NCBI GenBank assembly: GCA_029864335.1
Contig: JAOTTS010000007.1
Location: 1-46,676 of the forward strand
DNA: 46,676 bases
Direction of reading: 5' to 3'
Source: Candidatus Nitrosopumilus sp.
GTDB taxonomy: Archaea; Thermoproteota; Nitrososphaeria; Nitrososphaerales; Nitrosopumilaceae
Positions 8,190-33,051 of the stretch are shown piece by piece; the stretch's first letter is position 1; each line of letters opens with the position of its first letter. The notes below the pieces were generated by a model that had not been told where the DNA came from, did not search any database, and was given only the letters and a program-made list of their open reading frames with translations. The position numbers and the translations under genes were made by a program.

Positions 8190-8405
8190 ATAATTTATTG
8201 TGAATTTTATACTATAAACATTTTTCATAATATGATAAAATAGAGCGATTTTGAATTTCTCATGTCTAACTGTTTTTATTTTTAGCCTCGAAATGGTTGT
8301 TGGTGAAAAGCAATTCCAGCAATACAAATGGATCTAAAATGAACTTCTACAGGATCCATTTTTATCTTCGGATATATTTTTCATTCTTTCATTAGAGTTT
8401 TCATT

Positions 8406-8980
8406 GTGCCTAAAATTACCACTGACAAAACTAGAAAGTTTGTTGAAAAGATTACTCCTAATGACATATCATATCCCAAAACTTGGAAGAATCTTACAAT
8501 GATATGTCGGGTTGTACCTGCAGAAGTAGACGTTGGGGTCTCGTATCTTAATGACCCTGAAGAAGTAGAGGCGATATTAACAAAGGTTGGGAAGCGAGAT
8601 ATGAAAGAGACAACTGACAAAAAGGAGCACATCTAATTGTACAAGAGAGGTGTCCGTACATCGATGAAAGCAAATTAAGTTGCGGATGCGATAAAGATAT
8701 CCTGGTAGACATAGAACAACCAAAAGTCAGATTTAGAAACTTTGATGACTCTGCGTTATACTTTGCGATGTGGGTGTATGTAAGGGATTACACTTCTCAA
8801 TTCCCAGTAGAAAGTAAGTTGAGGTCAATAATGTACCAAGAATTCAAAAAGTATGACATTAGAATACCTTGGCCAATTAGAACTGTATATCAGGGAGATG
8901 AGAAAAAAGAAAATGATGAAATCTCTAAACTAAAAAAAGAGAGACAGAAAGTATTAGACGAATACAAATCAGGCACCTAA
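8406..8980 (+). pseudogene. mechanosensitive channel (MscS) C-terminal region, frameshifted
   Basis: The first part reads SYPKTWKNLTMICRVVPAEV then DVGVSYLNDPEEVEAIL, matching the alpha/beta domain of MscS channels. After a shift at the A run near 8620 it continues AHLIVQERCPYIDESKLSCG and ends VRFRNFDDSALYFAMWVYVR, then EFKKYDIRIPWPIRTVY and a charged tail. This is the typical C-terminal end of archaeal MscS. The N-terminal membrane helices are not next to it. Upstream in the same frame IRVFIVPKITT resembles the IPN motif, but a stop precedes it. The two parts could be translated as two peptides, but a functional channel is unlikely. Confidence 0.7.
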
Positions 8981-13611: not shown

Positions 13612-13800
13612 AACCGCAAGTGCAAAGAATTTGAAACTAAAAAGCAGCCTAGTGGAGGAAAATACGATCTTGGCCAAAAAAGATGTCAGATGTGTCAAAT
13701 ATTGGTTAGGTATGAAGAAATGCAATGTCCTTGTTGCCATTATCAGTTAAGAACCAAATCCAGACTTACTAGGTGTAAATCTAATGAGGCACAAATTTAG
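13612..13800 (+). pseudogene. small zinc-ribbon protein without a start codon
   Basis: The frame reads KCKEFETKKQPSGGKYDLGQ, KRCQMCQILVRYEEMQCPCC and HYQLRTKSR. The spacing CxxC...CPCC-x4-LR matches the small zinc-ribbon proteins at 22130-22333 and 24252-24431. Here a TGA at 13609-13611 precedes the frame and no ATG, GTG or TTG occurs before the first cysteine, so the 5' end appears lost. The rest of the gap from 13463 to 13611 shows no gene. Confidence 0.5.
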
Positions 13801-15875: not shown

Positions 15876-15946
15876 CATCCACGTTACGATTCCAATAGTT
15901 CCACGTGGGTGCGATTTTAACATTACTAACTAAACCCCATTCACGT
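15876..15946. repeat. hairpin element, copy 1 (with two alternative pairings)
   Basis: ACGTGGGTG (15903-15911) can pair with CATTCACGT (15938-15946) or with the upstream CATCCACGT (15876-15884), so two stems exclude each other. The part from 15902 to 15946 resembles 30866-30911 in both stem and loop. It lies in the gap between the convergent tspO and hemerythrin genes. Nothing else was seen between 15779 and 15988. Confidence 0.55.
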
Positions 15947-18444: not shown

Positions 18445-18588
18445 ATGAAAGAAAAGGTTTTGAATATGACTCCCAATGAAAGAAAGAAACTAGGAATTAA
18501 CAAATCAACATTATGGTATATGAAGAAGAATTTGTCTGAGGGGAAAACTCCTAAAATTTATGAGAAGATTCTTTTAAAAATTCAATAG
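18445..18588 (+). pseudogene. possible C-terminal fragment of a Cas1-like protein
   Basis: The frame reads MTPNERKKLGINKSTLWYMK then KNLSEGKTPKIYEKILLKIQ and stops. This KLGIN-KSTLWYMKK-LSEGK-KIY pattern resembles the end of some archaeal Cas1 proteins; I recall the pattern but cannot confirm it. The frame begins after a TAA at about 18425 and the remaining roughly 280 residues of a Cas1 are absent. No CRISPR repeats were seen. It may instead be an unrelated small DNA-binding peptide. The rest of the gap from 18127 to 18733 holds no recognisable gene. Confidence 0.35.
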
Positions 18589-18733
18589 AATTGTGCCTAT
18601 TTTGAGAATATTTTAATGAAATAATTGTAATAGCATTAAACTGATTTATCAAATCTCTATGAGAGAACTAAAAATGATCCAAAATAGTATCTGAAACTAT
18701 AAAGACCCGGCTTGAAAGTTTAACCGATAATCG

Positions 18734-19426
18734 TTATTCAAACAATCGTGACTGTGAACCTAACTGTGCCTTAAACTCTCTTTTAATGACTTCTGTAGTT
18801 GCATTTTTCATTACTTCTTTAGCTTTATTCATCACATTTTCACCGCCCCTGCTTCTAGTGATTAGTATTAGATCATAGAGTTTACTGTCTCCTTGTTTGT
18901 ATACTCCAACATCAACAGCAAATTTTGTTGAATTTGATTGGATTTTATCTAAATAATATTTCAACAATTTCGGTCCTAAATTATTTACATTTAATCGATT
19001 ATCTCTAATTTCCTTCCATCCATCATCTCCAAAAAAATCGTTCAGATTTTCTTCATGTTCAGATTTTTTCTTTGAAGTGGATACATTATGAGCAATTCCC
19101 TGTGTGTAGAAATTAAAAATGATGTCAATTCCAACTTCTTTAATCAATTTTTCCATTAATTTCCATTTTATTGGTACATAACCATCAGGATCTATTAGTA
19201 CTAAAATTGCCACTTGATATTGTCTCATTTTAAGTATTTTTTCAACAGCTTTTTCAAATTCTAATTTCTGAGAAGTGTATTCTTTTCCGTGTAGTCTAGT
19301 TTTACATTTAGCTAATCTGGAATTTAATGCTTCAATGTTACTGGAATTACTTTCAGAAAAAATACAGTCTGTATATCCTAATTCTGATGCATTTAATGCT
19401 CCAATAAGAGATGACCCTGAAAACAT
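18734..19426 (-). pseudogene. tcmP: three-Cys-motif partner protein TcmP, N-terminus missing
   Basis: The readable part matches the TcmP family: GSSLIGALNASELGYTDCIF at the start, then ILVLIDPDGYVPIKWKLMEK and IDIIFNFYTQGIAHN. The family usually has another 80-100 residues before this, with a segment like DxFAGPG; that part is absent. The open frame does extend to 19507, but the extra residues (FARYVLGFLSGPLSLLRGFF) are the complement of the neighbouring rightward gene. The junction near 19426 therefore looks like a recombination or deletion edge. TcmP proteins occur in mobile or defence settings with three-Cys-motif partners, none of which is seen here. Confidence 0.6.
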
Positions 19427-19499
19427 CTTTGCTGGAAAAAAACCTCGCAGTAGAGAAAGGGGACCAGACAAGAAACCCAGGACATACCGTGCAAACAGC

Positions 19500-19706
19500 A
19501 TGAACAATTTGGCACAATTTAATCAGAGACCTGAAGAGTTTGTAAAATATCTTAACGATGAAAAAGGAGTTGACATTACTGGAAATTCTGGAATCGTAAA
19601 GGCCTTCTTGATTTTTGGTGGAGTGATGATTGCAATCTTTGGTGGATTGTGGTTGTATAATCACTACAAAGATGGAAATGACAACAGCACAGAAAACAGA
19701 CACTGA
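19500..19706 (+). CDS. single-helix membrane protein (68 aa), possibly 5'-truncated
   Basis: MNNLAQFNQRPEEFVKYLND is followed by GIVKAFLIFGGVMIAIFGGL, one membrane helix, and a polar tail. The same frame is open upstream and reads DDPENIFAGKKPRSRERGPD and KKPRTYRANS, a very basic stretch that also looks coding, so the real start may have been lost at the TcmP junction near 19426. It is directly upstream of the array of TCGG boxes. Not recognised. Confidence 0.5.
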   Translation: MNNLAQFNQRPEEFVKYLNDEKGVDITGNSGIVKAFLIFGGVMIAIFGGLWLYNHYKDGNDNSTENRH

Positions 19707-19750
19707 TGTTAGAAGAGCAGTTGTAACGGACTGCTTTTCTGATATTTTTT

Positions 19751-19968
19751 ATCAATTCGGTGGAATGAATTATCAGTTCGGTAATTCATTATCAGTTCGG
19801 TAATTCATTATCAATTCGGAGATAGCAAATATCAGTTCGGTATCAATTCGGTTGAAGTAATTATCTTTTCGGTATCAATTCGGAGATATAATTTATCAGT
19901 TCGGTAAAATATTCCGAGAGTTTCCGATAGGTTGATCGATTATTTCTATCAGTTCGGTATCAATTCGG
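19751..19968 (+). repeat. array of eleven ATCARTTCGG boxes
   Basis: Boxes begin at 19751, 19772, 19791, 19810, 19831, 19842, 19863, 19874, 19895, 19948 and 19959. Nine of the ten steps are 11, 19 or 21 bp and one is 53, so most boxes lie on about the same helix face. The one imperfect box is ATCTTTTCGG at 19863. Short TTCCGA sequences in opposite orientation lie at 19911-19927 and near 19976. Boxes are usually preceded by T and often followed by T or A. There is no unique spacer as in CRISPR. The array ends about 140 bp before the dsbA-like gene at 20112. Confidence 0.88.
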
Positions 19969-20111
19969 GGATTTTTCCGAAACTATCGAAAAATCCTGAT
20001 AAAAAATCTGATCGCAATTGGTAGTTTCTCAATAATATATCGGAGAGCAACTGTATGTAATTCGCCTCTTTTTGGATAAATTCTTTTAATGTCAGCAACA
20101 CAACCGATGAC

Positions 20112-20816
20112 ATGAGAAAGAGAAGCAAAAAGACAAAACCTTCTGAAACCCCAAAAACCAAGTTCATAATAATTGGAATTGTTGTGGCAGTGATTGTTGC
20201 AGGGATTGCGGCAATATCTATGAATCCTGATTCAATCAAGGCAGACAATCCTAGAGCCACCAAACTGTCCTTGGATACAAGAAGTGGTTCACCCGTTCTC
20301 GGGGATGCGTCTTCACCTGTCACCATTGTGGAATTTGGCGACTATCAATGCCCCTTTTGCAAGAGATGGAATGAGACTACCAAGCCTGCAATAGAGAGTA
20401 ACCTGATTGAGACTGGCAAGGCAAGCCTCATCTACGTGGACTTTCCAATTATTGGCTCAGACTCTATAACCATCCATGCCGGAAGCTATTGTGCCGCAGA
20501 GCAGGGACTGTACTGGGAGTACCATGATTTTGCCTATGCAAATCAGGGCCATGAAAACGATGGCTGGGCAAATTCAGAAAATCTAAAGTTGTTGGTATCT
20601 GGAATTGACGGTCTTGATGCAGATTCATTCAATGAATGCCTTGACTCTAAAAAATACGAGCAGCGTGTAAAGGACAACAAAAAGATTGCATCAGGTGCAG
20701 GAGTACGTTCCACTCCGTCATTTATCGTAATACCTCAAGAGGGACAAGCTGAAATGATAACAGGCGCACAACCATATGGTGCATTCAAGACACTCATTGA
20801 TGAAATGACCAGATAA
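20112..20816 (+). CDS. DsbA-like thiol oxidoreductase, membrane anchored
   Basis: A 234-residue protein. A basic N-terminus and one membrane helix (FIIIGIVVAVIVAGIAAISM) are followed by a DsbA/Com1-type thioredoxin domain with the active site Cys80-Pro-Phe-Cys83 in VEFGDYQCPFCKRW. The cis-proline segment is GVRSTPSFIVIPQ. It would form or shuffle disulfides in outer-face proteins. The protein at 45552-46262 is a close paralogue with the same layout. The TCGG array upstream suggests special control of this copy. The ATG at 20112 suits the anchor. Confidence 0.9.
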   Translation: MRKRSKKTKPSETPKTKFIIIGIVVAVIVAGIAAISMNPDSIKADNPRATKLSLDTRSGSPVLGDASSPVTIVEFGDYQCPFCKRWNETTKPAIESNLIETGKASLIYVDFPIIGSDSITIHAGSYCAAEQGLYWEYHDFAYANQGHENDGWANSENLKLLVSGIDGLDADSFNECLDSKKYEQRVKDNKKIASGAGVRSTPSFIVIPQEGQAEMITGAQPYGAFKTLIDEMTR

Positions 20817-20836
20817 GATTAATTTCTAATATATCT

Positions 20837-20983
20837 TCAAATCACCTCAATTACTTTTACTAGAAGAAACAACTGATAATTTCTACGCGTTGCTTTAATA
20901 CAAAAAACAATCACTCCAATCAGATAGGAATGGGGCTTCTTCCCGACCGGTGCCTCACAACCGTCTGTTCTTTTCTTTGACAT
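20837..20983 (-). CDS. possible small protein (48 aa)
   Basis: MSKKRTDGCEAPVGKKPHSY leads to LIGVIVFCIKATRRNYQLFL. A single hydrophobic stretch lies in the middle. No promoter or ribosome-binding site supports it, and the higher G+C around 20930-20980 might equally mark a structured RNA. Nothing else was seen between 20817 and 21113. Confidence 0.25.
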   Translation of the reverse strand: MSKKRTDGCEAPVGKKPHSYLIGVIVFCIKATRRNYQLFLLVKVIEVI

Positions 20984-21113
20984 GTACACGGTAATCACAC
21001 ATCATAACGTGGTCACAAAATCAAGGCAGATCTGCTGCCATTTGCATTATTTTAACGACCAGATGTGAAGATACAGAAATGTTTAGCTAGTACAAGATTG
21101 CAGATGACAATCC

Positions 21114-22025
21114 ATGCCACAAGAACATGACCAAACACGATTAGGGTATGTATTTGCAATATTGGCTGCCGTCATGTTTGGTTCTGTGTCTGTTGTGGCA
21201 AAGCCGCTTGTATCCACAATTGATCCTGTTTTGCTTGCATCCATGGTGTATGTCATATCTGCCATTGCCTTGAGTCCTTTTGCACAAAAGAAAAAGAAAA
21301 GTCTTGCAAGAAGAGATCTTTTGCTGGTTTTTTCAATAGCAATCTGCGGCGCGGTCGTTGCACCAAGTTTGTATTTTGTCGGGTTGACGCATGCAAGTGC
21401 ATCAGATGCCGCCCTGATTGCCAATGGCGAGGTCTTCTTTTCTGTTTTGCTTGCAGTGATGTTTTTCAAAGAGAGATTAAAGATGACAGGAGTAATTGCC
21501 GTTCTGTTAGTTCTAGCCGGTATGATAATTATCACTACAAATCTGGATTTTACAACTTTTACCTTGCAACAAATACACTACAAGGACATACTGCTGATTT
21601 TATCCATGTTATTTTGGGCACTTGACAACAATCTCAGCAGATACTTGGCCCAAAAAATGGATGTTGCAAACATTGTCCAGATAAAGTCTGCAATGGGAGG
21701 AGTGATGCTGTTTGTAATTTCATTATTGGTGTTTAGAGTGGATATCAACATTGAGGCAGATCAGATAATTTCAATTTTGTTACTTGGTACTGTCGGTTTT
21801 GCAGCATCGCTTTATTTTTTCTTGCAGGGATTAAAGAGGATAGGAACGGTCAGAACCATAACCCTATTTTCAATGTCATCGGTATTTGGCCTTGTCGCAT
21901 CTTTTGTTTTTTTGGCAGAGCAGATTGGCTGGCATCATATAGTGGCAGCAGGAATTATGATACTGGGGGTTTATCTTGTGAGCAGAAAGGAATCCGTAAT
22001 CAGTCCTGCATCGATTTCAAAGTAA
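21114..22025 (+). CDS. EamA/DMT family transporter
   Basis: A 303-residue protein with about 10 hydrophobic helices arranged as two EamA repeats (about residues 10-140 and 155-290). Family features are YVFAILAAVMFGSVSVVAKP at the start, ALIANGEVFFSVLLAVMFFK closing repeat 1, and MSSVFGLVASFVFLAEQI with GVYLVSRKE closing repeat 2. Probably exports an amino acid or other metabolite; the substrate is unknown. The ATG at 21114 follows a polar start (MPQEHDQTRLG). It stands alone. Confidence 0.88.
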   Translation: MPQEHDQTRLGYVFAILAAVMFGSVSVVAKPLVSTIDPVLLASMVYVISAIALSPFAQKKKKSLARRDLLLVFSIAICGAVVAPSLYFVGLTHASASDAALIANGEVFFSVLLAVMFFKERLKMTGVIAVLLVLAGMIIITTNLDFTTFTLQQIHYKDILLILSMLFWALDNNLSRYLAQKMDVANIVQIKSAMGGVMLFVISLLVFRVDINIEADQIISILLLGTVGFAASLYFFLQGLKRIGTVRTITLFSMSSVFGLVASFVFLAEQIGWHHIVAAGIMILGVYLVSRKESVISPASISK

Positions 22026-22129
22026 CTGCAATGGTACATAGTCATGTCTTATTGAAAGATATCAAAATCATCCCCCCCATCTCACCAAGTAATATCAAAA
22101 GGCACTATGCAACCAAGGCAAATCCAAGA

Positions 22130-22333
22130 TCATGGATTATTGCGGTATCTTTGCTTGTATTGATTGTTCTTGGGCTTGTTTCTTAGCATGTATCCACAAC
22201 AGGGACACCACAATCCCTCCCATTTTATGTAAATATCACATGTAGTACACCTCTTTGCACCCTGTTTGTACCACGAGTCCGTCCTCTTTCCCTTTGTAAC
22301 CTTGTATTTGTTACAGATGCCATTGCAAGTCAT
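22130..22333 (-). CDS. small zinc-ribbon protein
   Basis: A 67-residue protein with CNGIC near the start and AKRCTTCDIYIKWEGLWCPC-CG in the middle, then LRNKPK and a basic tail. The cysteine pattern (CxxC, then CPCCG) should hold one or two zinc ions. Two relatives lie at 13612-13800 (broken) and 24252-24431. The function is unknown; nucleic-acid binding is likely from the basic tail. It is convergent with the EamA gene. Confidence 0.7.
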   Translation of the reverse strand: MTCNGICNKYKVTKGKRTDSWYKQGAKRCTTCDIYIKWEGLWCPCCGYMLRNKPKNNQYKQRYRNNP

Positions 22334-22377
22334 CGATTCATATCACAATTGGGAAATTATGAATTTAATTAATCGGT

Positions 22378-23268
22378 TTATTCCTCTCTTGGGAGCTTGC
22401 CCTTCTCATCGAATTGGTCTTGAATATCTGATGTGGCATTGCCATATTGTATATTCAAATTCTTGTTAAAATTCATGATCTCATTTTGTGTAACCTTTGC
22501 TTTCTCTTGGAATATTTTCATAGCCTCAAAAGATGATTTACCTTCATCTAATGCGTTTTCCTTGGCGTCATGTGCCTCTTTTGTTAATTTTTCTGTAAAC
22601 AAGAATTGTTGCCAAAATATTCCCCTTATCGAACTATCCACATCTGCTATGAATCTGTAAAATGCATTTCTAGGACTATAATACTCCGTTCTTTTTTCAG
22701 AATCCTTCAAATCCTCTTGCAGTTTTGCTTCTGCTTGCATTCTTTGTTCGTCAATTTGATGTTGTTCTTTAGCAATTTCTTTTTTCTTTACTTCTTTTTC
22801 CTTTTGTTCTTCAAGCTGTTTGATCATTTTTGAAAAAGGATCAAGTTCGACATTTCCATCAGTTATTTTAGGTTGTAGGGGCGTTGTAATTTTTAATGGA
22901 TTTGTTGGCAGACTCTCTGATACTTGATATTTTATTTGAGCGTCTGTGAATCTGTTGTCTTTTTTTGCATAAACTGTAATGGTATACTCTCCTGTTTCTG
23001 CAGGGTTCATAGATGTAACATAGAATTGGCCTGTAGAATTAGTTGAAGTTTTTATTTTTTCAGAAGGAAAATTGACCTGAATTTGTACATCTGAAACAGG
23101 GTTTTTGTCCAACGTTAGTGCATGACCACTTACAAATGGGTACTGGCCTGCCTCAAATTCGGATAAACTGTTAATTGTAAACGTGAAATCATCTGTAGCC
23201 CATGCAGGATTGGCTAAAAACAAACCTAGCATGAATGAAAGTAATAACATGTAGGAAATTTTTAACAT
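22378..23268 (-). CDS. secreted protein with a shared GKLPR C-terminal domain
   Basis: A signal peptide (MLKISYMLLLSFMLGLFLAN) is followed by an Ig-like beta domain (about residues 25-115: FVSGHALTLDKNPVSDVQIQ), a long coiled coil (residues 140-190) and a helical C-terminal domain ending DIQDQFDEKGKLPREE. That last domain is related to the end of the protein at 23404-24033. The beta domain resembles carboxypeptidase regulatory or CNA-B type folds. It is probably a surface protein; the function is unknown. The neighbour at 23404 points the same way with a gap of 135 bp. Confidence 0.75.
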   Translation of the reverse strand: MLKISYMLLLSFMLGLFLANPAWATDDFTFTINSLSEFEAGQYPFVSGHALTLDKNPVSDVQIQVNFPSEKIKTSTNSTGQFYVTSMNPAETGEYTITVYAKKDNRFTDAQIKYQVSESLPTNPLKITTPLQPKITDGNVELDPFSKMIKQLEEQKEKEVKKKEIAKEQHQIDEQRMQAEAKLQEDLKDSEKRTEYYSPRNAFYRFIADVDSSIRGIFWQQFLFTEKLTKEAHDAKENALDEGKSSFEAMKIFQEKAKVTQNEIMNFNKNLNIQYGNATSDIQDQFDEKGKLPREE

Positions 23269-23403
23269 GAATTGGTTTAGAAAAAATGAAATTAATTCCC
23301 AATATCCAAAAATATGATCAATTTATTGTAAATTTATAGAGTCAGATTGATGATTGTATCAGGCAATAAAGTTGTGAAACATTATTTCTAAAAAAAGAAA
23401 TAG

Positions 23404-24033
23404 TCAATCGTACCTTGGTAGTTTCCCATACTTGTCAAATGTAGATTGAATTGTATTATCTGCTAACCCATGTTTGACGTTCAAATCTTTTGTAATGTCA
23501 ACTAGTTGTACACGTTTAGTTGCGCCTGCATTGTGATATGCCTCTCTTGCTTCTTGGAGTGAACCTCCGTTATCAAGAACCGCTTTCATTGCTTGTCGTG
23601 CATCAGAAACTTTTTGTTGTTGATAATTGAACATCCCCCAGTAGACATTTTGAGTTTCCACAGGCTTTGAGGATACAAAGCTTGTAAAAGATGCCTTTGG
23701 AGTATGATCCTTGTATTTGTCATGCATTCTATCTAATTCCTTGTCCAGTGCTTGTTTTACAAGGACTCTCTGCTGTTCGATGAATTTTTGGTGTTCTTGC
23801 TGTTTGTTCTGATTTTCTTTTGCTTGGGCAAATTTTTGTTTCATCATTTCTATTTTTTCAAGTAATGATTTTACCATTGGATCCTTGCTAATCTGCTCAG
23901 TGCTTTTTATTGTGAATCCGCTATCAGTACTTGATTGTGCAAATACATGAATCGATTCATTATCTGAAATAGTTGACAACAAGATGATTCCTAGTATGGC
24001 GGTGTATATTGCATAGTTTGATGTGTTGTTCAT
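23404..24033 (-). CDS. secreted coiled-coil protein with a GKLPR C-terminal domain
   Basis: A 209-residue protein: signal peptide (MNNTSNYAIYTAILGIILLS), a charged coiled coil (about residues 60-115), and a helical domain that ends with ITKDLNVKHGLADNTIQSTF and DKYGKLPRYD. It shares the LN(I/V)-x2-G-x-A...IQ-x2-FD-x2-GKLPR pattern and the segment VYWGMFNYQQQK with the protein at 22378-23268 (IFWQQFLFTEKL), so the two are paralogues. A 24-bp repeated sequence lies about 90 bp upstream. The function is unknown. Confidence 0.72.
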   Translation of the reverse strand: MNNTSNYAIYTAILGIILLSTISDNESIHVFAQSSTDSGFTIKSTEQISKDPMVKSLLEKIEMMKQKFAQAKENQNKQQEHQKFIEQQRVLVKQALDKELDRMHDKYKDHTPKASFTSFVSSKPVETQNVYWGMFNYQQQKVSDARQAMKAVLDNGGSLQEAREAYHNAGATKRVQLVDITKDLNVKHGLADNTIQSTFDKYGKLPRYD

Positions 24034-24122
24034 TCTTGGTTTTGATTTTTCATTTTACTATTTAGAAATTAATTAGAAAATAATAGTAATCTTAATCAAC
24101 AATAAAACTAATTATGCAAAAG

Positions 24123-24146
24123 TCAAATTCAAACTTGTATCATAAA
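24123..24146 (+). promoter_or_regulatory. 24-bp repeated sequence, copy 1
   Basis: Identical over 24 bp to 25537-25560; the core is AAACTTGTATCATAAA. It lies between the secreted protein gene (start 24033, leftward) and the small zinc-ribbon gene (start 24252, rightward). Confidence 0.7.
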
Positions 24147-24251
24147 TTTCTAAATGTAAAACAAGGCAAAGAAATAATTGAATTGTTCTATAACTAATGA
24201 TGAAAAATTAGAACTAGCTGAAATTTTTTGAGATGTGTGGTTAGATTGGTA

Positions 24252-24431
24252 ATGATATGCAAAAATAAATGCAATGATTCAAAAATTGAGAGAATTTCAA
24301 ATAAGCTCAGTTATGAAAATGGTTTCAAATGGTGCGCTTGTTGTTGTGTTTTCATAAGAATTGACAGGTTAAGATGCCCTTGTTGCAATGTTACACTTAG
24401 ATCTAGTCCTAAAACTAAGATCAAAAGTTGA
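24252..24431 (+). CDS. small zinc-ribbon protein
   Basis: A 59-residue protein starting MICKNKCNDSKIERISNKLS, with WCACCC and LRCPCCNVTLRSSPKTK. The Cys spacing and the (L/V)-LR-S/N-x-PK end match the protein at 22130-22333. A TTG 24 nt upstream would add eight residues, but the ATG at 24252 directly before CKNKC fits the relatives better. Likely zinc-binding, perhaps nucleic-acid-binding. Its last base touches the end of the convergent gene at 24432. Confidence 0.7.
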   Translation: MICKNKCNDSKIERISNKLSYENGFKWCACCCVFIRIDRLRCPCCNVTLRSSPKTKIKS

Positions 24432-24812
24432 CTAGGGTTTTTCTAGATGATTTTTCTTTTTTCTCATTATTCCAAAAAAGAAGCTAACTAGAATACATAA
24501 CATGATTACTGATAAAAACAGATCAAAAGAATCGTCATCAAAGGGCAATAATTCCTGCAGTGCTTCAATTCCCAGATATATCGTGAATAATGAAAATGCG
24601 ATTGCAATAAATTTGAGTTGGGAAACTCTTGTTTTTTTGTATGCCGATATTGCCATTAATGTTAAAAGTATGGACAAGCCAGCTATGGCAATAGAGACTG
24701 AACCTGCAATTAGGTCGTCTTGTGTGACAATATCTAGGGGGTCATCAAAGGGATTAAAGTAATCAAGTTGTAGTGTAATCTTTGATATAACCGATAACTG
24801 TGAGTTAAACAT
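24432..24812 (-). CDS. three-helix membrane protein (126 aa)
   Basis: Three hydrophobic helices at about residues 36-56, 67-85 and 97-116 (LSVIMLCILVSFFFGIM) follow an acidic N-terminus with DYFNPFDDPLDIVTQDD. Not recognised; the form resembles small archaeal membrane proteins cotranscribed with ArsR/winged-helix regulators. It starts 19 nt after the stop of the regulator gene at 24832, so the two form an operon and this protein may be the sensor or target of that regulator. Confidence 0.7.
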   Translation of the reverse strand: MFNSQLSVISKITLQLDYFNPFDDPLDIVTQDDLIAGSVSIAIAGLSILLTLMAISAYKKTRVSQLKFIAIAFSLFTIYLGIEALQELLPFDDDSFDLFLSVIMLCILVSFFFGIMRKKKNHLEKP

Positions 24813-24831
24813 TCTACCTGGTTACCTGTTT

Positions 24832-25347
24832 TTACTTTTCATCAAATGCCGAAAATACATCTGCCATGTTGTTTACCATGGAATTCCATGCAGTTGATTT
24901 GCACTTGCCAAGGTTACTCAACACACTATCCTTATCTTTAAGACTATATACGGTAAATTTTCCAGAATATTCTTTTTGAATGATTTGTAATGCTAGTAGT
25001 CTTTTCATGTGCCAACTTATTGTGGATGAGGACAATCCTATTCCCTTGGCTATGTCTTGATGGGTGGAAGGTTCATGCTGAATCAAGTACATTACAATAT
25101 TCCTTGGAGAATTCAAATTAAGCACGGAAAGAATTTCTTCATCAGACTCGCTAATGTGATAATAGTTTTTGTAAAATTTTGTTTTGACTGATTTGATTTT
25201 ACCTTCTTTTTCAAGTATGGCAAGATAATACTGAACCGTACCCATGGAGTAGCCAAGGTTGTTTTTGATCTTTCGTAGATGAGAGCTAGGGTTAGCAATT
25301 ATGAACTCCAAAATGCTACTCTTTGATGATTCTAAAATCTCATCCAT
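24832..25347 (-). CDS. transcription regulator with two winged-helix domains
   Basis: A 171-residue protein. Domain 1 (about residues 8-65: ILEFIIANPSSHLRKIKNNL, YSMGTVQYYLAILEKEGKI) and domain 2 (about residues 80-140: IVMYLIQHEPSTHQDIAKGI, LSSSTISWHMKRLLALQII) are both winged helices of the archaeal ArsR/MarR-like type. It is cotranscribed with the membrane protein at 24432. A partial copy of the AAACTTGTAYCAT sequence lies about 80 bp upstream, and exact longer copies lie in front of the flanking secreted protein genes, suggesting that this protein controls its neighbourhood. That link is inferred. Confidence 0.85.
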   Translation of the reverse strand: MDEILESSKSSILEFIIANPSSHLRKIKNNLGYSMGTVQYYLAILEKEGKIKSVKTKFYKNYYHISESDEEILSVLNLNSPRNIVMYLIQHEPSTHQDIAKGIGLSSSTISWHMKRLLALQIIQKEYSGKFTVYSLKDKDSVLSNLGKCKSTAWNSMVNNMADVFSAFDEK

Positions 25348-25428
25348 GATTACATTTCACAGAATCACCGATTTAACCTATTCTACAAATAATTACAGTT
25401 TTTTGATAAAATTTCTTTTGTTAGATCT

Positions 25429-25444
25429 AAACTTGTACCATCAA
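25429..25444 (+). promoter_or_regulatory. AAACTTGTACCATCAA, weaker third copy
   Basis: Matches the core of the 24-bp repeat with two changes. It lies upstream of the winged-helix regulator gene and could give autoregulation. Confidence 0.4.
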
Positions 25445-25536
25445 TGTTTTAACCATAATCCGTCAGTAAGAGAGGTGGCAGGAATTAATACATTGTTCAT
25501 GTTATCTACGTACGATTGATTTTATCTGTTCCTGCC

Positions 25537-25560
25537 TCAAATTCAAACTTGTATCATAAA
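25537..25560 (+). promoter_or_regulatory. 24-bp repeated sequence, copy 2
   Basis: Identical to 24123-24146. A TATA-like AGTATATCC follows at 25563-25571, and the gene for the calcium-repeat protein starts at 25593, so this copy sits directly upstream of a core promoter. Confidence 0.72.
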
Positions 25561-25592
25561 GAAAGTATATCCAGAATCATTATGGGAATAGG

Positions 25593-27071
25593 TTGAAGAT
25601 TAACCGTAAGGGGATTACTATTGTTTCAGTTGGTGTATTTTCTGCTTTAATGATTTCATTGGCTTCAGGATTGTTCGCTGACGTTCAGTTAGATATCTCT
25701 GATGCAGACCTAGACGAAATTGAGGATGTTTTTGATAACTGTCCTAAAATACAAAATAATGATCAAGATGATTTTGACAAGGACTCTCTTGGCAATCCCT
25801 GTGATGAAGACGATGATAACGATGGCATAATGGACTCTATTGATTTCTTTGATACTGATCCACTTGAATGGGCAGATTTTGATTTTGATGGAATAGGATC
25901 AATAAAAGACGAAGATGATGACAACGATGGCATAATAGATGCAGAAGATACTGATCCAACTCTGCCTTCAGAGGATTTGGCAAGAAAGTATCTTCAAGAA
26001 ATACAAGATTGTGCAGAAACGGATGATGGTCCACCACGTCTGCTTTGTTATTCACAGTTTTTTGGCAGAGTGGCAGAAAATGAAGAAAACAATTCTGATG
26101 CACTTGAATTGTCTATTGCATTATCTAAAATGGGCACCATAGACGACTGTCATTTTGTGTCCCACGAGATAGGCCATGTAGCTTTTAATAAAAATCCAAA
26201 CGTAATACCAAACCTTGTAGGAATGGATGGAACGATGTGCAGAGGAGGATATTTTCATGGAGTGTTGGCATCTTATTTTCATGACATTGAGGAGGCAGGT
26301 GAACCTTTCCCATCCACATATAACATAATTTGTGATGACTTGATAGGATCTTCAAACTATCAAGACTGTATTCATGGATTAGGACATGGATTAGTACATT
26401 ATTTTGGTGAAGATTTGAGTTCATCATTGGAACTGTGCCATGACATGTCATTTTATCAGAACATACTATGTGTGAAGGGAGTAATGATGCAGCATACAGA
26501 CAATATCTTAACCCGACAAGGAATTTCCAAAGATGTGATTTCTAATCTTTGTGATGGAACAGAGCTAGAATCTCTTGATTTTGTTGAATGCAGCATGTCC
26601 GTTGGAACCACTTTGGCATTTTTCACAGATCATAATTTTGATGAGGGTGCCAAATCATGTGAACTGATTGAACATGAGCAAGGTCAAAATTACTGTCTTG
26701 AAGGCTTGCGATTAGAAATTGAAGATTCCGAAAAATATGAAATTAAACCCCTCACTAAAGATGTGAGGGAAAAATTCCAGCCACAATCAATTGAAGGTGG
26801 TTCAAAAACAATAGACATTCGAAGCCCTGCAGTAATTTCTGACTTTGAATTTATTCCCCAAGCGGGCATAATCTCATTTTCCATTGACCGGCCTCAATAC
26901 GTGATATTATACATTCCAAGTGAATTTGTCACATCAAAAATGGTAGTGACGGTAAACGGCCAAATTCCAAACGAGTTGGATGCAAAAAACAATATCTTTG
27001 GAGAAAAAATTGCAATGATAAGATTTGTTCCCAATAATGCAGGATTAGTAATGATTACTCCATTAACCTAG
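25593..27071 (+). CDS. secreted protein with calcium-binding repeats and a Cys/His-rich HEIGH domain
   Basis: A 492-residue protein. After a signal peptide (GITIVSVGVFSALMISLASG) come thrombospondin-type-3-like repeats with acidic loops (DEDDDNDGIMDSIDFFDTDP and DEDDDNDGIIDAEDTDPTLP, residues 70-125). A domain rich in Cys and His follows, with CHFVSHEIGHVAF at 186-198, a later CIHGLGHGLVHYF and several paired cysteines. HEIGH fits the HExxH zinc-peptidase core, but no downstream third ligand is certain. The C-terminal 90 residues are beta-rich. The start is TTG at 25593; the 24-bp repeat and a TATA box precede it. It is probably a calcium- and metal-binding surface protein or peptidase. Confidence 0.72.
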   Translation: MKINRKGITIVSVGVFSALMISLASGLFADVQLDISDADLDEIEDVFDNCPKIQNNDQDDFDKDSLGNPCDEDDDNDGIMDSIDFFDTDPLEWADFDFDGIGSIKDEDDDNDGIIDAEDTDPTLPSEDLARKYLQEIQDCAETDDGPPRLLCYSQFFGRVAENEENNSDALELSIALSKMGTIDDCHFVSHEIGHVAFNKNPNVIPNLVGMDGTMCRGGYFHGVLASYFHDIEEAGEPFPSTYNIICDDLIGSSNYQDCIHGLGHGLVHYFGEDLSSSLELCHDMSFYQNILCVKGVMMQHTDNILTRQGISKDVISNLCDGTELESLDFVECSMSVGTTLAFFTDHNFDEGAKSCELIEHEQGQNYCLEGLRLEIEDSEKYEIKPLTKDVREKFQPQSIEGGSKTIDIRSPAVISDFEFIPQAGIISFSIDRPQYVILYIPSEFVTSKMVVTVNGQIPNELDAKNNIFGEKIAMIRFVPNNAGLVMITPLT

Positions 27072-27133
27072 TAATGAAGTAACAAAATTGACAATCATTT
27101 CAAGTAACGTGAATTTTGTTAATTTTTAAAATC

Positions 27134-27389
27134 TCAATAATTATCTGTATTGATTAGGTCTTTTTGTTTTAGTATTTCTAATTTCATTATTATCACATCA
27201 ATGGGCAGACCAGTAACTTTGCTAATTTCATCAGGTGATCTAGACTGCTTTGTAAGAGTAAAAATAACCTGCATTAGGGCCTTATCTTCAAAATAGTGTT
27301 TTTTCCACGATTTTATTTCTATAGCCTAGATTTAGCTCAATTGGGTTCTTGTACTTTTTAGTACGATCTTGAATTTGAGTTTTAATCAA
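27134..27389 (-). pseudogene. small winged-helix-like protein, frameshifted
   Basis: The first frame, from a TTG at 27389, reads IKTQIQDRTKKYKNPIELNL and GYRNKI. After a one-base shift near the A run at 27310 it continues KKHYFEDKALMQVIFTLTKQ, SRSPDEISKVTGLPIDVIIM and KLEILKQKDLINTDNY to a TGA at 27134. The second part has the alternating helix-turn-helix and wing pattern of small archaeal regulators. Joined length is about 85 residues. Only one indel is required. Confidence 0.5.
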
Positions 27390-27430
27390 GAAATAACCTC
27401 TTAATTTTTTGACACTTTATTATAGACTTA

Positions 27431-27468
27431 AGAATAGTTTTGGTATGAGTATTATTCATACTTATTCT
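27431..27468. repeat. nested inverted repeats
   Basis: GTATGA/TCATAC (27443-27448 with 27456-27461) lies inside AGAATA/TATTCT (27431-27436 with 27463-27468). The gap between 27390 and 27589 holds no gene; the hairpin could end a transcript or bind a regulator. Confidence 0.35.
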
Positions 27469-27589
27469 CAGGATGTAAAAGTCAAAATGGCATGACGAAA
27501 GGACATGCACAAATTGTCACAAGTTTATTCCAATTGTTGAATCAAAATAGATTCATTTTTTAAAATAACAAAAAATAAGAGCAGTCAAA

Positions 27590-28240
27590 CTAACTGCTCT
27601 TCATTGCAATCATGGTTTTGATTCCAGACTGCGTAGACTTTATCTGGGATTCAAGAAGTTGGGCCTTTTGAGTCAAGTTTTGTATCTTGGCATCATCATA
27701 GTCTAGCTTCTTGTATTGGCTGATCTTCTGGTTGACCTGTGCCAGATTGTTCTTCAGGTCATGCACTTTTGCATTAAACGAAGAGACAAGTGCATCAATA
27801 CCGTTTTGTTCAAACAAGGTTATCTTTACGCTATCTGATTCTGCCAGAACCTTTGCACCATATGTGGCACAGTCTTTGTACTTTACACTGTCCGAATCAA
27901 TCGGTACTGGTACTGCATCAAGATCTGATGTTATCAGTGCACCTACTGACTCTTTGCTATACTTGTTGTGGCAATAGTCAAATGTTACACTAGATGTGTT
28001 TTGTTTCAGATCAGTTACCTTGATGTCATGTATTCCATTTCTGTCAATCTCATCCTGGGAATATGCAAATGCAGACTGCAGCAGGACCATTGCAATAAAC
28101 ACTGCAATCACAACCAGGCCCAAAGCAAAGTTTACAGATGTCACAAACCTGTAGGTTGGCAACACTATCTTTGATTTTACTTGCTCTATATTGTGGGGAA
28201 TTGCCTCGTCAACATCTGTTATGATTTTGTATACTGTCAT
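27590..28240 (-). CDS. membrane-anchored extracytoplasmic protein with a C-terminal coiled coil
   Basis: A 216-residue protein: a 30-residue cytoplasmic start, one helix (FALGLVVIAVFIAMVLLQSA), an outside beta domain with two cysteines (DYCHNKYS and YKDCATYG) likely to be paired, and a coiled coil from about residue 150 (VHDLKNNLAQVNQKISQYKK and LESQIKSTQSG). Not recognised. The ATG at 28240 gives the usual anchor layout; GGAGGT 7-12 nt upstream is a good ribosome-binding site, unusual in this mostly leaderless region. Confidence 0.7.
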   Translation of the reverse strand: MTVYKIITDVDEAIPHNIEQVKSKIVLPTYRFVTSVNFALGLVVIAVFIAMVLLQSAFAYSQDEIDRNGIHDIKVTDLKQNTSSVTFDYCHNKYSKESVGALITSDLDAVPVPIDSDSVKYKDCATYGAKVLAESDSVKITLFEQNGIDALVSSFNAKVHDLKNNLAQVNQKISQYKKLDYDDAKIQNLTQKAQLLESQIKSTQSGIKTMIAMKSS

Positions 28241-28484
28241 TTTTTGTTCACCTCCAAAGGAACCTGTAGAAAACAGATGATAACCAGACGTGGTTAATGA
28301 CTAGTCTCATTTGTGAGACTTGTTTTCTCATCTGTTTCCATTTTTGTGTTTTGGATTTTTGCCTCCAATGGAATACTGTGTAATCTTGCTTATTAGACAG
28401 ATGCAAGTTGATGTGATTCAAAACGAAATCATTTCCATCAATCCTTAATTCTTGATATGTGGTAGAATGACCAAAGGTGAAAAA

Positions 28485-28682
28485 ATGAACATTTATGATA
28501 CAAAGACAATTGTTTATCGCAGTTGTAAGACTCCAATTGGGGAAATTGAATATGATGCAGAAGTAATGTTGCCACAATGTGGAAAATGTGCGAATCCAAT
28601 GCCTGAAGGAGACAAAATTCTCTATGCATTGAGTCCATTTAGAAACAACGCATTACAGCAACTAATAGTGAAGAGTAAATAA
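28485..28682 (+). CDS. small cysteine-containing protein (65 aa)
   Basis: MNIYDTKTIVYRSCKTPIGE is followed by EYDAEVMLPQCGKCANPMPE and a hydrophilic end. CGKC may bind zinc with the earlier Cys14. ATG 28485 is preferred because GGTGA lies 5-10 nt upstream; earlier starts at 28452 or 28467 would cover that site. A second small gene follows at 28704, and the two may form an operon. Function unknown. Confidence 0.55.
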   Translation: MNIYDTKTIVYRSCKTPIGEIEYDAEVMLPQCGKCANPMPEGDKILYALSPFRNNALQQLIVKSK

Positions 28683-28703
28683 TTCAATCAGGTGGCATAA
28701 TCA

Positions 28704-28859
28704 ATGCAAATAGAAACAGTCCAAACCGAAGAGTTGGCCCAACTAGACAAGATTGTAAATGAGATAATAGAGCAGAGAAATGTTATAGATATTAAATTGA
28801 CAACAACTGTTTTCCAGGAAAAAATATTGTATACTGCACTAGTGATACTTGATGAATAG
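28704..28859 (+). CDS. small acidic helical protein (51 aa)
   Basis: MQIETVQTEELAQLDKIVNE leads to IIEQRNVIDIKLTTTVFQEK and a hydrophobic C-terminal strand. GGTGG about 9 nt upstream is a good ribosome-binding site, and the gene starts 21 nt after the previous one, so cotranslation in an operon is likely. Not recognised. Confidence 0.5.
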   Translation: MQIETVQTEELAQLDKIVNEIIEQRNVIDIKLTTTVFQEKILYTALVILDE

Positions 28860-28909
28860 AGTTGTCAAGACGCCACACTAAAAATCACATGGATATTTTT
28901 TAATTCGTA

Positions 28910-29116
28910 TCAAAATGAATCCAAATGAAGGCAAACTATCATCCAAAAAATAATATCAAATAACATCATGGTTTGATCTTTAATTGCAAACATGGGTTCA
29001 GAAATTTCCAATGAATAATGCTCAATGTTTATCAACCCAAATACAAACACCAAGATCAATGAAAAAGTGACAAAGCTTAATCCTTTCTTGAATGTTGGCG
29101 AAAGCATTACACTCAT
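28910..29116 (-). CDS. small two-helix membrane protein (68 aa)
   Basis: Two hydrophobic segments (LSFVTFSLILVFVFGLI and MMLFDIIFWMIVCLHLD) are joined by an acidic loop with HYSLEISEPMFAIKDQ. It is divergent from the exchanger gene at 29158, with only 41 nt between the starts. Charged ends and the loop look protein-like, but no relative is recognised. Confidence 0.5.
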   Translation of the reverse strand: MSVMLSPTFKKGLSFVTFSLILVFVFGLINIEHYSLEISEPMFAIKDQTMMLFDIIFWMIVCLHLDSF

Positions 29117-29157
29117 AATCAGAAACAGTAAAGGAACATTATATCCGGATATTTCTC

Positions 29158-30105
29158 ATGGAGTTAATTTTCACTTTTTTGCTTGTGGGTGCAGGGTTGG
29201 CCATGCTGTATTTTGGAGCAGAATGGTTAGTAAAAGGATCAATTGCAATATCCCGCAAACTAGGAGTCAGTCAACTAGTGATTGGTCTGACTGTTGTTGC
29301 CTTTGGAACATCAACGCCAGAACTTGCAGTAAGTGTTTCATCAGCAATGCAAGGATTGTCTGATGTAGCATTAGGCAATGTAGTTGGAAGCAACATTGTA
29401 AACATTGGGGCAATTTTAGGAGTTTCAGCCATTATCAACCCAATCATAGTTTCAAAATCAGCAATAAGAAAAGAAGTCCCCATAATGATTGGAATATCCT
29501 TTCTTTTATTGGCAATAATTCTGGATGCTAAAATCGATTTAATTGATGGAATACTACTTGTTGTCGGAATTATTGTTTTTACAGGATATAGTTACCGTAG
29601 CTCAAAAAAAGACACAGACATTCAAGAAATTCCTGTTTCCCAAATATTACAAAAAAATGTTTTTTCAAAATCAATTGTTTTCATTATTGCAGGACTATTG
29701 CTCTTAACTGGAGGATCGTTTCTTACAGTGGACAATGCAGTAATCATTGGAGCAAGTTTTGGGATATCCGAACTATTTATGGGGTTGACAGTAGTTGCAA
29801 TAGGAACCTCTCTTCCAGAATTAATAACATCAGTAGTTGCTGCAAGAAAAGGTCATGCAGATCTTGCTGTTGGAAACATTGTGGGAAGTAATATCTTCAA
29901 CATTATGGCAATATTGGGAATTTCATCATTAATTTCAGGCATTGCAGTTAGCGAGAAAATATTAGTGGATGTTGGAATCATGCTTGCATTTAGCCTTGTT
30001 TTGATTCCGATAATGCGCAGCGGTTTTGTCATATCCAGAAAAGAGGGAATATTTCTAATTGCAGGATATGTTGGATATGTGATATTTTTGTTGTACAGAC
30101 AATAG
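29158..30105 (+). CDS. Na+/Ca2+ exchanger family protein (CaCA)
   Basis: A 315-residue membrane antiporter with 10 helices in two inverted halves. Both alpha repeats are clear: [20 protein letters not shown] with [18 protein letters not shown], and [20 protein letters not shown] with [18 protein letters not shown]; the glutamates in TPEL and LPEL are the ion ligands. It matches the YrbG/MJ-type exchangers. The ATG at 29158 is followed directly by the first helix, as usual. It probably removes calcium from the cell in exchange for sodium or protons. Confidence 0.95.
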
Positions 30106-30210
30106 TTACTAAATCACGATTCAATACCAAAATGGAATGGTATCTGAAAAAGGAGATGAGTTGAAAAAAATGAGACAGATCATACCTCTGTCTCATAACT
30201 AGTATGAAAA

Positions 30211-30375
30211 TTAAATATTGGTTGCAATAAAGGCACCAATACCCATACCCATTACAGCACCTATTGCCATACAGACAAGATCAAATTTAATGACCTTTCT
30301 AAATGGGGCGTGTACCATTTTATCTAGCGTGCTGATTTTCTGAGTTTGCATATCTTTCACCTCGGCACCACTCAT
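30211..30375 (-). CDS. small membrane protein (54 aa)
   Basis: MSGAEVKDMQTQKISTLDKM is followed by VHAPFRKVIKFDLVCMAIGA and VMGMGIGAFIATNI: a polar start and one glycine-rich helix. The composition is similar to the tiny membrane proteins at 14685 and 33785. It could be an accessory helix of a respiratory complex, which cannot be tested here. Confidence 0.55.
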   Translation of the reverse strand: MSGAEVKDMQTQKISTLDKMVHAPFRKVIKFDLVCMAIGAVMGMGIGAFIATNI

Positions 30376-30471
30376 AATACAATCAAATAATTAAACAAAG
30401 AAGAGATTGATGTAACACTGAATCAAATCAACTTACATTCATCTTAATAATTTGAACGTGTAACTAACTTC

Positions 30472-30539
30472 AGTGAATTCGTGATAAGACAGCTGCCTAC
30501 TCCCTTTGCAGCGCAGGTCTGCCTTCATTTGAATTCACT
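30472..30539. ncRNA. candidate structured element enclosed by 9-bp inverted repeats
   Basis: AGTGAATTC (30472-30480) and GAATTCACT (30531-30539) bracket a 50-nt centre that is much richer in G+C than its surroundings and has short internal complements (CTGC/GCAG). The minus strand reads GGCAGACCTGCGCTGC. It could be a small RNA or a regulatory stem. Confidence 0.35.
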
Positions 30540-30624
30540 TTTTAGGATGTTTGAAAACAACAAGATATTCTGAAAGTTCATCACACATACAAACAATGAA
30601 ACTATATACATCAAGTTTAAATTC

Positions 30625-30786
30625 ATGGGATCAGAATACGCAATAGCCGTTACAAGGTTTGAAGGCAAAACCGAGTTGGAAAACCATACGGAAAGAAAAA
30701 CCTTCAATCAGTATATTCTAAAACAATCTTTCTTGAAGATATTTTTTGATTCTAGTTCCATATGTGTAAATATCATCCAATGTTGA
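30625..30786 (+). CDS. possible small protein (53 aa)
   Basis: MGSEYAIAVTRFEGKTELEN continues HTERKTFNQYILKQSFLKIF. A TATA-like CTATATAC lies about 20 nt before the ATG. The second half is less protein-like. No relative is recognised, so this is only a candidate. Apart from it and two structured elements, the stretch from 30376 to 31120 shows no gene. Confidence 0.35.
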   Translation: MGSEYAIAVTRFEGKTELENHTERKTFNQYILKQSFLKIFFDSSSICVNIIQC

Positions 30787-30866
30787 CTTTTCCTTTAGCA
30801 GGCATGGGTATGCTGTATTTTGAGAATTAATTATAACTTCCAATATTTTTCCTGAATATTATTTAC

Positions 30867-30911
30867 ACGTGGGTGCGTTAATTTTCTCCCTAACTATATC
30901 CCCATCCACGT
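30867..30911. repeat. hairpin element, copy 2
   Basis: ACGTGGGTG (30867-30875) pairs with CATCCACGT (30903-30911). The stem and much of the loop (CTAACTA-x-A-x-CCCCAT) match copy 1 at 15903-15946, with stem differences that keep pairing through G-U pairs. It lies upstream of the end of the SPOUT gene, in a convergent gap if the small gene at 30625 is real. Confidence 0.55.
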
Positions 30912-31120
30912 TATACTCCCAAGTAAATTTGAACCAAAAACATCTCAAGAATGGAGAATTACATTCACACTATGTTTTATGTAATATGGTTTAAGTTACT
31001 CCGATTTCTATATATTTACAAAAAAGTACTTGCATAATGTACATTTAAAAAACAATCATCTTTTAATGAAAACTAACACATTTCGAGGTTTTTATGAGTA
31101 CATTTTGTGAACTAATTAAC

Positions 31121-31927
31121 CTAATTTGACGCGTTAATTATGGCCAGTGTTCCAAGCAATGCTTCTTCCAGTCGTACAGTTTCAGTTGCTTGATTGGGAA
31201 AAAAGTTCAATGATTTTGCATTTTGAACATTCTTCATTTTTCCTCCAAGGATTTCATGAACACCTTTTTCCGGAGATCCGAAAACTACGAGTATCGGCTG
31301 ATCTGATTTGACATATTTGGAAATTTGTTCTTTTGTTGCAGTTTTACCTTTTCTGGATGTGATGATTATGTTTCCTTTCCATTCAGCAAATACTGAAAAT
31401 AAGTTTGCCCTCTCTTTTACAGAATATCCCCAATAGGCCTGAACTTCATTTTTGTCTATCTCTTTTACAGATAATTTTGGATAGCCTTCTTTGAATTGCA
31501 CTGTGACTCTTTTACCAATGGGTGTCTTACCAAAAAATGGAATTAGTTGATTAATCCCTACATCTACAAATCTTTTACCCTTTACACTGATTACGATTCC
31601 TTCACGTACATCTCCAGGATTGATCTTTTTTGCATTTACTGGAGTAATGTGACTAGGAATTTTAAGTGGTTGAAGAACTCCAGCAAATTTTAGATCATTC
31701 ATTTTTGGAAATAATCTTCTTCTCAAAAATTGGGGTGTCTCTAAATATTTTAAAATCATTACCATTAGACTTCCGTCTGTCCTGTTGTTTCCTTCTTGGT
31801 AAACGTATATCGTATCAATTTTAAAAATTGCACATGCTCTTGCTAAAACTGAAATTTTTCTTGTTTTGTCTATCTTAAGTGATTCATCAGATAATGCAGA
31901 TTCTGGAATGGCAACAGATAATTTCAA
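31121..31927 (-). CDS. SPOUT-class RNA methyltransferase (DUF171 / COG2106)
   Basis: A 268-residue protein of the family whose characterised members methylate ribosomal RNA uridines at N3. The N-terminal strand (KLSVAIPESAL), the PQFLRRRLFPKMNDLKFAGV segment, an inserted OB-like domain (about residues 100-160: DVREGIVISVKGKRFVDVGI) and the knot region ILVVFGSPEKGVHEILGG are all present. The last part ATETVRLEEALLGTLAIIN contains the SAM-binding loop. It ends an operon after psmA, with 33 nt between them. Confidence 0.9.
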   Translation of the reverse strand: MKLSVAIPESALSDESLKIDKTRKISVLARACAIFKIDTIYVYQEGNNRTDGSLMVMILKYLETPQFLRRRLFPKMNDLKFAGVLQPLKIPSHITPVNAKKINPGDVREGIVISVKGKRFVDVGINQLIPFFGKTPIGKRVTVQFKEGYPKLSVKEIDKNEVQAYWGYSVKERANLFSVFAEWKGNIIITSRKGKTATKEQISKYVKSDQPILVVFGSPEKGVHEILGGKMKNVQNAKSLNFFPNQATETVRLEEALLGTLAIINASN

Positions 31928-31960
31928 TATGATTTAATCTCCCAGGCTTACTTTGTGTGA

Positions 31961-32698
31961 TTATTTTTGGTCGTGTGGGTATTTCTCTTTAGCAGTTTTT
32001 GCATAGTTTTCAATTTGCTCATCTGAAACTAATTCATACAAACCAGTTTCTGTTTTAATATGCGCCATTCTGATGTGACTTGTGCTTTCCTTATCTTCAC
32101 TTGATAGATAAATTCCAGCAGCAGCTAACACGGCAGCATCATCTAAGGATAGATCATCTTTGTATGTTTTCTCTAAAAAGTCTGTAACTTGATCGGAACC
32201 CGAACCAATTGCAATTGCGTCATAAGAGATGTAAGTTCCACTAGGATCTGTTAGATACAATTGTGGTGTACTATTTACAACTCCACCAAGAATTAATGCA
32301 ACACCATAAGGTCTCACTCCTGCATATTGTGTATATTGCTGACATTGATCAGCTAAGTGTTTTGCAATGGTTTCGACTTCTACTGGTTCATCGTAAATCA
32401 TTTTGTTACTCTGAGAAAAGAATCGTGCATTATCTACTTGACTTCTTGCATCTGGAATATATCCTGCTGCTGCAACTCCAACATGATCATCAATTTGGAA
32501 AATCTTTTGAGCTATATTTGAGATTTGTAACTTTCTTGGTTTTTCCTCTACTGCAATGATAATTCCATCTTTGCATTTTACTCCAACAGCTATTGTTCCT
32601 CTTCGTACTGTTTCTATTGCGTACTCTACTTGGTATAGTCTGCCATCCGGGGAAAAAACCGTGATTGCTCTATCATAACCTTGTTGTGCAGGAAGCAT
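31961..32698 (-). CDS. psmA: proteasome subunit alpha
   Basis: A 245-residue subunit of the 20S proteasome outer ring. The N-terminal gate helix signature YDRAITVFSPDGRLYQVEYA, ETVRRGTIAVGVKCKDGIII and the KLQISNIAQKIFQID stretch are standard, as is SDQVTDFLEKTYKDDLSLDD. The conserved glycine and lysine needed for activator binding (EKPRKL) are present. The C-terminal region is hydrophilic (KEKYPHDQK). No beta subunit occurs in the window. Upstream of a SPOUT methylase gene, in the same direction. Confidence 0.97.
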   Translation of the reverse strand: MLPAQQGYDRAITVFSPDGRLYQVEYAIETVRRGTIAVGVKCKDGIIIAVEEKPRKLQISNIAQKIFQIDDHVGVAAAGYIPDARSQVDNARFFSQSNKMIYDEPVEVETIAKHLADQCQQYTQYAGVRPYGVALILGGVVNSTPQLYLTDPSGTYISYDAIAIGSGSDQVTDFLEKTYKDDLSLDDAAVLAAAGIYLSSEDKESTSHIRMAHIKTETGLYELVSDEQIENYAKTAKEKYPHDQK

Positions 32699-32980: not shown

Positions 32981-33051
32981 TTTACTTCTGTATTTTCTGA
33001 AAAATCTTTGGTAAAAGAAGTAATTCTGCATTAAAGATCGATGAGCCAAAA

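Follow-up and report, generated by a model that had tools for sequence, protein, structure and literature searches.

The window, i.e. the whole analysed stretch of 46,676 nucleotides, is a casposon island of a Nitrosopumilus-like archaeon. A TIR profile revealed two right TIRs on the minus strand, one at 15896-15939 (E=7e-8) belonging to a preceding casposon and one at 30858-30904 (E=1e-12; outer end at 30904) belonging to the casposon that holds the array of short boxes described below. Since the array is located between the right TIRs at 15939 and 30904, it lies inside an element of approximately 15 kb. The left TIR of this element was searched for and not found; the element probably starts just after the TIR at 15939 and is probably a decayed derivative. 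Directly beyond its right end, a presumed target-site repeat (TCCACGTTATACT), followed by a decayed stretch resembling a tRNA 3' end, was assigned at 30905-30917 (no strand) by comparison with intact tRNA-Glu sites, and no matching copy of this repeat was found on the left side of the element. Homology searches identified several gene remnants on the plus strand. The casposon cas1 gene is represented at 18445-18585 by 47 amino acids of its HTH tail (residues 364-410, 81% identity), and the 3' part of smTM, a gene of the casposon core for a small basic single-TM protein, is found at 19434-19706, where approximately the first 22 codons are missing. Of polB only remnants occur near the window element, among them a short one (8340-8522, 44% identity) to the left of the TIR at 15939. 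Between the cas1 and smTM remnants a cargo ORF for a TcmP-like protein (three-Cys-motif partner; 18734-19507, minus strand; NCBIfam TIGR04474, E=6e-27) is located, whose true start is probably further downstream since its first 25 or so codons overlap the smTM remnant. On the other side, the array is adjoined by a DsbA/thioredoxin-like gene (20112-20816, plus strand; Pfam PF13462, E=2.5e-24), which starts approximately 100 bp 3' of the array tail and is casposon cargo as well. Protein-disulfide isomerase, hemerythrin and UspA are among the cargo that has been listed for thaumarchaeal mobile elements (PMC6563490).

The array itself (type A; 19751-19968, plus strand), defined by motif scan, phasing and shuffles, consists of eleven TATC(A/T)(A/G/T)TTCGG boxes. 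Ten of them contain an exact ATCARTTCGG while the one at 19863 (ATCTTTTCGG) deviates by two mismatches. The boxes start at 19751, 19772, 19791, 19810, 19831, 19842, 19863, 19874, 19895, 19948 and 19959, giving steps of 21, 19, 19, 21, 11, 21, 11, 21, 53 and 11 bp, the 53-bp step corresponding to about five helical turns as well. Our recount on the plus strand thus agrees with the initial annotation, which had described eleven boxes in the same direction with these spacings. For the window array alone, a phasing at about 10.5 bp was obtained (vector length 0.74, P ~0.001). The window contains eleven exact ATCARTTCGG boxes, ten of which fall into a single 230-bp cluster; 200 dinucleotide shuffles of the window gave 0.145 exact boxes on average and no cluster larger than 1. 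The whole genome contains 33 exact boxes, compared to three for the reversed control, and most of them are clustered. Clusters were found on contigs C3, C5, C11, C27, C48 and C53, the window array being one of several copies. The proposed genome-wide count therefore did reveal clusters, which occur neither once per genome nor as a scattered regulon, but about once per casposon. Past the boxes, more degenerate related motifs (TTCCGAGA.., TGATCG) run on to about position 20014; comparison of copies demonstrated that this degenerate tail (TTTTCCGAAACTATCGAAAAATCC..TCTGATCG; 19969-20014, plus strand) is common to other type A arrays. A small inverted repeat (GCAGT..ACTGC) and a subsequent T-rich stretch (19717-19738, plus strand) were noticed by eye between smTM and the array. 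Direct reading of other type A copies revealed the inverted repeat there too, and by eye it looks terminator-like. An Rfam search of the window yielded no RNA family match.

In related genomes, the full module comprises cas1 and an HTH gene on one strand and p170, HNH, polB, smTM and the array on the other; cas1-HTH-p170-HNH-polB-smTM is the casposon core. Here, an intact smTM follows polB, and several array copies are situated directly 3' of the smTM end. The smTM product is composed of a basic segment with an RGxDxxPR motif and one hydrophobic stretch. Cas1 of the relatives is intact, as confirmed by Pfam, and has a length of about 410 residues; its nearest solved structure is that of the Methanosarcina mazei casposase (6OPM, E=6e-70), with an alignment extending into the C-terminal HTH. 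Profiles of Pfam, PHROGs and NCBIfam did not recognise PolB, which was identified by motifs A, B and C of family B polymerases (DxxSxYP, KxxxNTxxYG and YxDTDS) in six relatives. With a broader pattern and a profile applied to wider flanks, TIRs (TGGGGATATAGTTAGG..ACCCACGTGGAA) were found for the array-bearing elements, which stand back to back with about 12 nucleotides between them and are tandem casposons with a common target repeat. In the examined stretch of genome G174 (35231-117948, loci L130-L135), at least five complete elements follow each other in a row, with target repeats of about 12 nucleotides between the TIRs; five of them together extend from 35231 to 117935. Further large tandem islands are located in G118 (C1:1710544-1754877) and on contig C51 of G150 (L063, L075). 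Wherever ARAGORN recognises a tRNA, the target is the 3' end of tRNA-Glu(CTC). More distant casposons also possess TIRs, with a 14-bp target repeat in L224. The features by which casposons are recognised, a casposase-type Cas1, a family B polymerase, TIRs and a target-site duplication, are all present in the relatives. The suggestion that the array could belong to a mobile element was hence borne out, and the finding named beforehand as an objection, an array inside a known transposon, largely applies since it lies inside a known type of transposon. The array is not the end of the element, as the TIRs lie further out.

TIRs, target repeats, PolB and tandem pairs have already been described for casposons (PMC4046053, PMC6563490). 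The elements studied here resemble the thaumarchaeal family 1 in their Cas1 integrase, family B polymerase, HNH and small genes upstream of polB, TIRs, target-site repeats, tandem integration and Nitrosopumilus hosts (PMC4046053, PMC6563490). On the other hand, family 1 elements mainly target the aEF-2 gene (PMC4046053, PMC6563490) instead of the tRNA-Glu 3' end, and their Cas1 is described as compact and without additional domains (PMC4046053), while a C-terminal HTH is present here. As for the protein-primed PolB of family 1, what was observed here are the PolB motifs as such, the comparison being with descriptions of the family. Given a Cas1 of about 410 residues whose HTH tail can be aligned with both 6OPM and the tail of PolB, we refrain from assigning the elements to family 1. 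The accessible parts of the open casposon literature mention neither an internal phased array nor a tRNA-Glu target, an absence which is not proof; the internal phased array is a new feature of a known kind of element.

To compare the arrays of the relatives, the pattern TATC(A/T)NT(T/C)C(C/G)G was used, and the consensus TATCwwTYCGG was obtained. The examined loci comprise 192 boxes in 29 arrays. Averaged over the 163 successive steps, cos(2 pi d/P) has its maximum of 0.924 at P = 10.50 bp; the spacers vary in length and sequence while the boxes keep to one helix face, which corroborates the same-face phasing proposed initially. It was also rightly stated that the array is not a CRISPR, which has long identical repeats and unique spacers of one size, whereas the boxes here are 10 bp long and the spacers range from 1 to 43 bp. 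Six of the seven complete TIR-to-TIR elements contain exactly one array; the shortest (8.1 kb) has none. Three gene settings were distinguished. In type A, the array lies 3' of smTM, and the next gene may face it, as hsp20 does in L060 and L061. Type B elements have no polB, and the array is embedded in a longer region (about 480 bp); four of six such arrays fill the space between divergent genes for secreted proteins, beginning about 90 bp off a start codon. In type C, the array is reversed and lies inside an operon within the 5' coding part of smTM2, where it forms 21-bp repeats corresponding to seven codons. Box codons are almost invariable there (Thr ACC in 29/30 cases, background 22%; Gly GGA in 42/42, background 49%; Ile ATA in 41/41, background 29%) and linker codons vary, although tandem or recent duplication may explain part of this uniformity. 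Between homologous arrays, boxes are 94% (type A) and 91% (type B) identical and spacers 78%, a comparison that is somewhat biased since the boxes were chosen by pattern. The complete genome G118 harbors an intact cas1 and arrays, yet no match to this PolB and no intact smTM; one of its elements (19956-38877 of the examined stretch) contains an array and neither cas1 nor polB. With one genome per species, the exact paired box was found in Nitrosopumilus records, and the single matches in about a dozen unrelated bacteria look like chance. No paired boxes were detected in IMG/VR, and a spread of the array by viruses was rejected on this basis.

We tentatively favor, at chances close to even, an interpretation of the array as a cis-acting site in the casposon interior, comparable to iterons or centromeres, which is cooperatively bound and serves the life cycle of the element itself. 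According to this model, each element would carry one set of helically phased boxes, a protein would bind cooperatively along one face of the DNA, and the bound array would build a nucleoprotein complex serving replication, upkeep or mobilization of the element. We infer the binding of a protein, its cooperativity and the step that is served; the supporting observations are the 10.5-bp phasing, the presence of about one array per element, the three gene settings, the box-following codons of type C and the greater similarity of boxes than of spacers. In addition, the array is kept without polB and once without cas1, and retention where genes of the element are missing is what would be expected of a cis-acting site. 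An objection is that G118 keeps arrays in the absence of PolB and of an intact smTM, so that they do not depend on that replication module. Among the supporting points we also counted tandem arrays of an unrelated kind next to cas1. They are situated directly 3' of cas1 in other Nitrosopumilus casposons (L216:10846-11070 and L226:1-127, 100% matches) and comprise 22-bp units repeated 6.9 and 3.7 times (L216) or a 43-bp unit repeated three times (L226); that such arrays are iteron-like sites diverging together with their readers fits these data, which are only suggestive in this respect. Against a cis-acting site speak the complete 8.1-kb element without an array, an AT content of the array not above that of its flanks and the position of several type B arrays in divergent promoter regions, which equally fits an operator.

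Known systems provide parallels to such a site. In iteron-type plasmid origins, several direct repeats follow each other at distances of about 11 or 21 bp on one helix face, with one array per replicon. The casposon array shares the direct repeats in helical phase but, unlike iteron origins, is also kept where the polymerase of the element is absent. Plasmid partition sites and centromere-like repeats are phased arrays too, present once per element and next to a small gene of DNA-binding type; the casposon array is likewise phased and present about once per element, and the product of the adjacent smTM is a membrane protein. Archaeal Orc1/Cdc6 boxes are repeated short boxes as well; host origin boxes were rejected because, around orc1, this genome contains GGAGTGGAAATAAAGGGG repeats but not a single TATCwwTYCGG box. 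GC skew, suggested as a check in the initial annotation, does turn near the array in several elements, with minima within about 0.3-0.6 kb of it in four elements; in full type A and C elements, they lie about 4 kb away. However, the minima follow gene direction, and skew was dismissed as evidence proving an origin. For family 1 casposons, replication from the ends has been proposed (PMC4046053), in which case an internal origin would not be needed.

The main rival explanation, which we consider rather unlikely, is a multi-operator region: cooperative binding of a regulator to the phased boxes would switch neighboring genes, either those of cargo operons or those at the end of the polB operon. 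It gains from the divergent type B arrangement, from the turn of skew and gene direction at the array and, in the window, from the short distance between the array tail and dsbA. A constant place at regulated promoters was, however, found for several type B arrays only and not for types A and C: the type C array is part of a coding region inside an operon, the gene next to a type A array may face it, neighbor genes vary between elements, and so does the regulatory HTH gene of the module even between elements with the same boxes. Control of this particular dsbA, one of the roles originally envisaged, could not be upheld as the primary one. A relative possesses an orthologous dsbA without an array, the homology beginning at 20021, just outside the array, and elsewhere the array faces hsp20, sits inside coding sequence or lies between other genes.

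Phage Mu has an enhancer that consists of several sites and lies in the interior of the transposable element. The casposon array resembles it in these respects and in its frequent vicinity to divergent genes, but the Mu integrase is unrelated. An internal transposition enhancer, to which Cas1 (and PolB) would bind through a common C-terminal HTH to assemble the integration or excision complex, has in our opinion a small chance of being correct. The C-terminal HTH-like tails of Cas1 and PolB from the same elements (L060 and other casposon loci) are homologous (BLASTP 1e-8, hhalign probability 98%), and cas1 is present in all closely examined genomes with well-kept arrays, including G118 which lacks PolB. 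In the M. mazei casposase, the HTH is an essential part, for which the DNA ligand is given as unknown (PMC6977970). Conversely, casposons with different boxes, or with none of this kind, have nearly the same tail, which may therefore read the ends or the target instead, and according to the casposase literature no known casposon reaction requires an internal site in vitro. A recombination-prone repeat without a function of its own, located where core and cargo meet and growing through slippage or unequal exchange, would account for the variable copy number, the repeated 117-bp block in L061, the location of arrays at module borders and several solo remnants, but is very improbable since slippage yields neither 10.5-bp phasing with unequal spacers nor about one array per element, box-following codons or boxes that are better kept than spacers.

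Returning to the favored cis-acting site, candidate readers are smTM, the winged-helix-like p170, the HTH tail common to Cas1 and PolB, and a host factor. The HTH genes beside cas1 are unlikely readers because they differ between elements with the same boxes. For p170, a confident model was predicted, whose PDB matches are weakly winged-helix-like, none at E<=0.001, whereas the predicted model of smTM is poor (pLDDT 61). The putative initiator genes polB and smTM adjoin the array in types A and C and are absent in type B. It is conceivable, with a rather slim chance, that the HTH tail of Cas1 and PolB recognises the array as its internal site, so that one DNA platform would couple copying and integration of the casposon. 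If true, this would answer the question of what the essential and unexplained HTH domain of casposases binds.

The CRISPR adaptation machinery has been proposed to descend from casposons, about whose copying, persistence and self-control little is known. A conserved internal cis-site that is kept without polB or cas1 would offer a DNA target for finding a replication, maintenance or regulatory protein. Moreover, the array serves as a search tag by which decayed casposons as well as islands of tandem casposons can be traced in marine ammonia-oxidising archaea.

Some additional observations were made in these islands. A more distant casposon (L219:4856-5368 and L079:2129-2566, both minus strand) has an smTM-like gene with another repeat of loose phasing in its 5' coding part (CAGAAmAAAT; mean cos 0.4-0.5 at 10.5 bp). 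A motif of about 60 bp (..CTGATTTATCAAATCTCTATGAGAGAA; window 18611-18671, L119-L125) follows the cas1 remnant and is also dispersed in genomes lacking this cas1. Two places, 20919-20985 of the window and around 89040-89110 of the examined stretch of G174, have a conserved stretch in common (GATAGG..GGCTTCTTCCCGACCG..CCTCACAACC), which has no Rfam match and is possibly a small RNA or a terminator. Mutually related small zinc-ribbon-like ORFs, exemplified by those at 13618-13797, 22154-22327 and 24255-24419 of the window, are frequent in these islands. Judged by sequence reading, TATA-binding-protein-like genes belong to the cargo in G174 (105520-106080 of the examined stretch, L135) and in L063 (10366-10929). 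Finally, an AbiV/HEPN protein (Pfam) and, by eye, other defence-like genes are located beside casposon cores (L058:15877-17205 and 19418-20557; L076:10109-14228).
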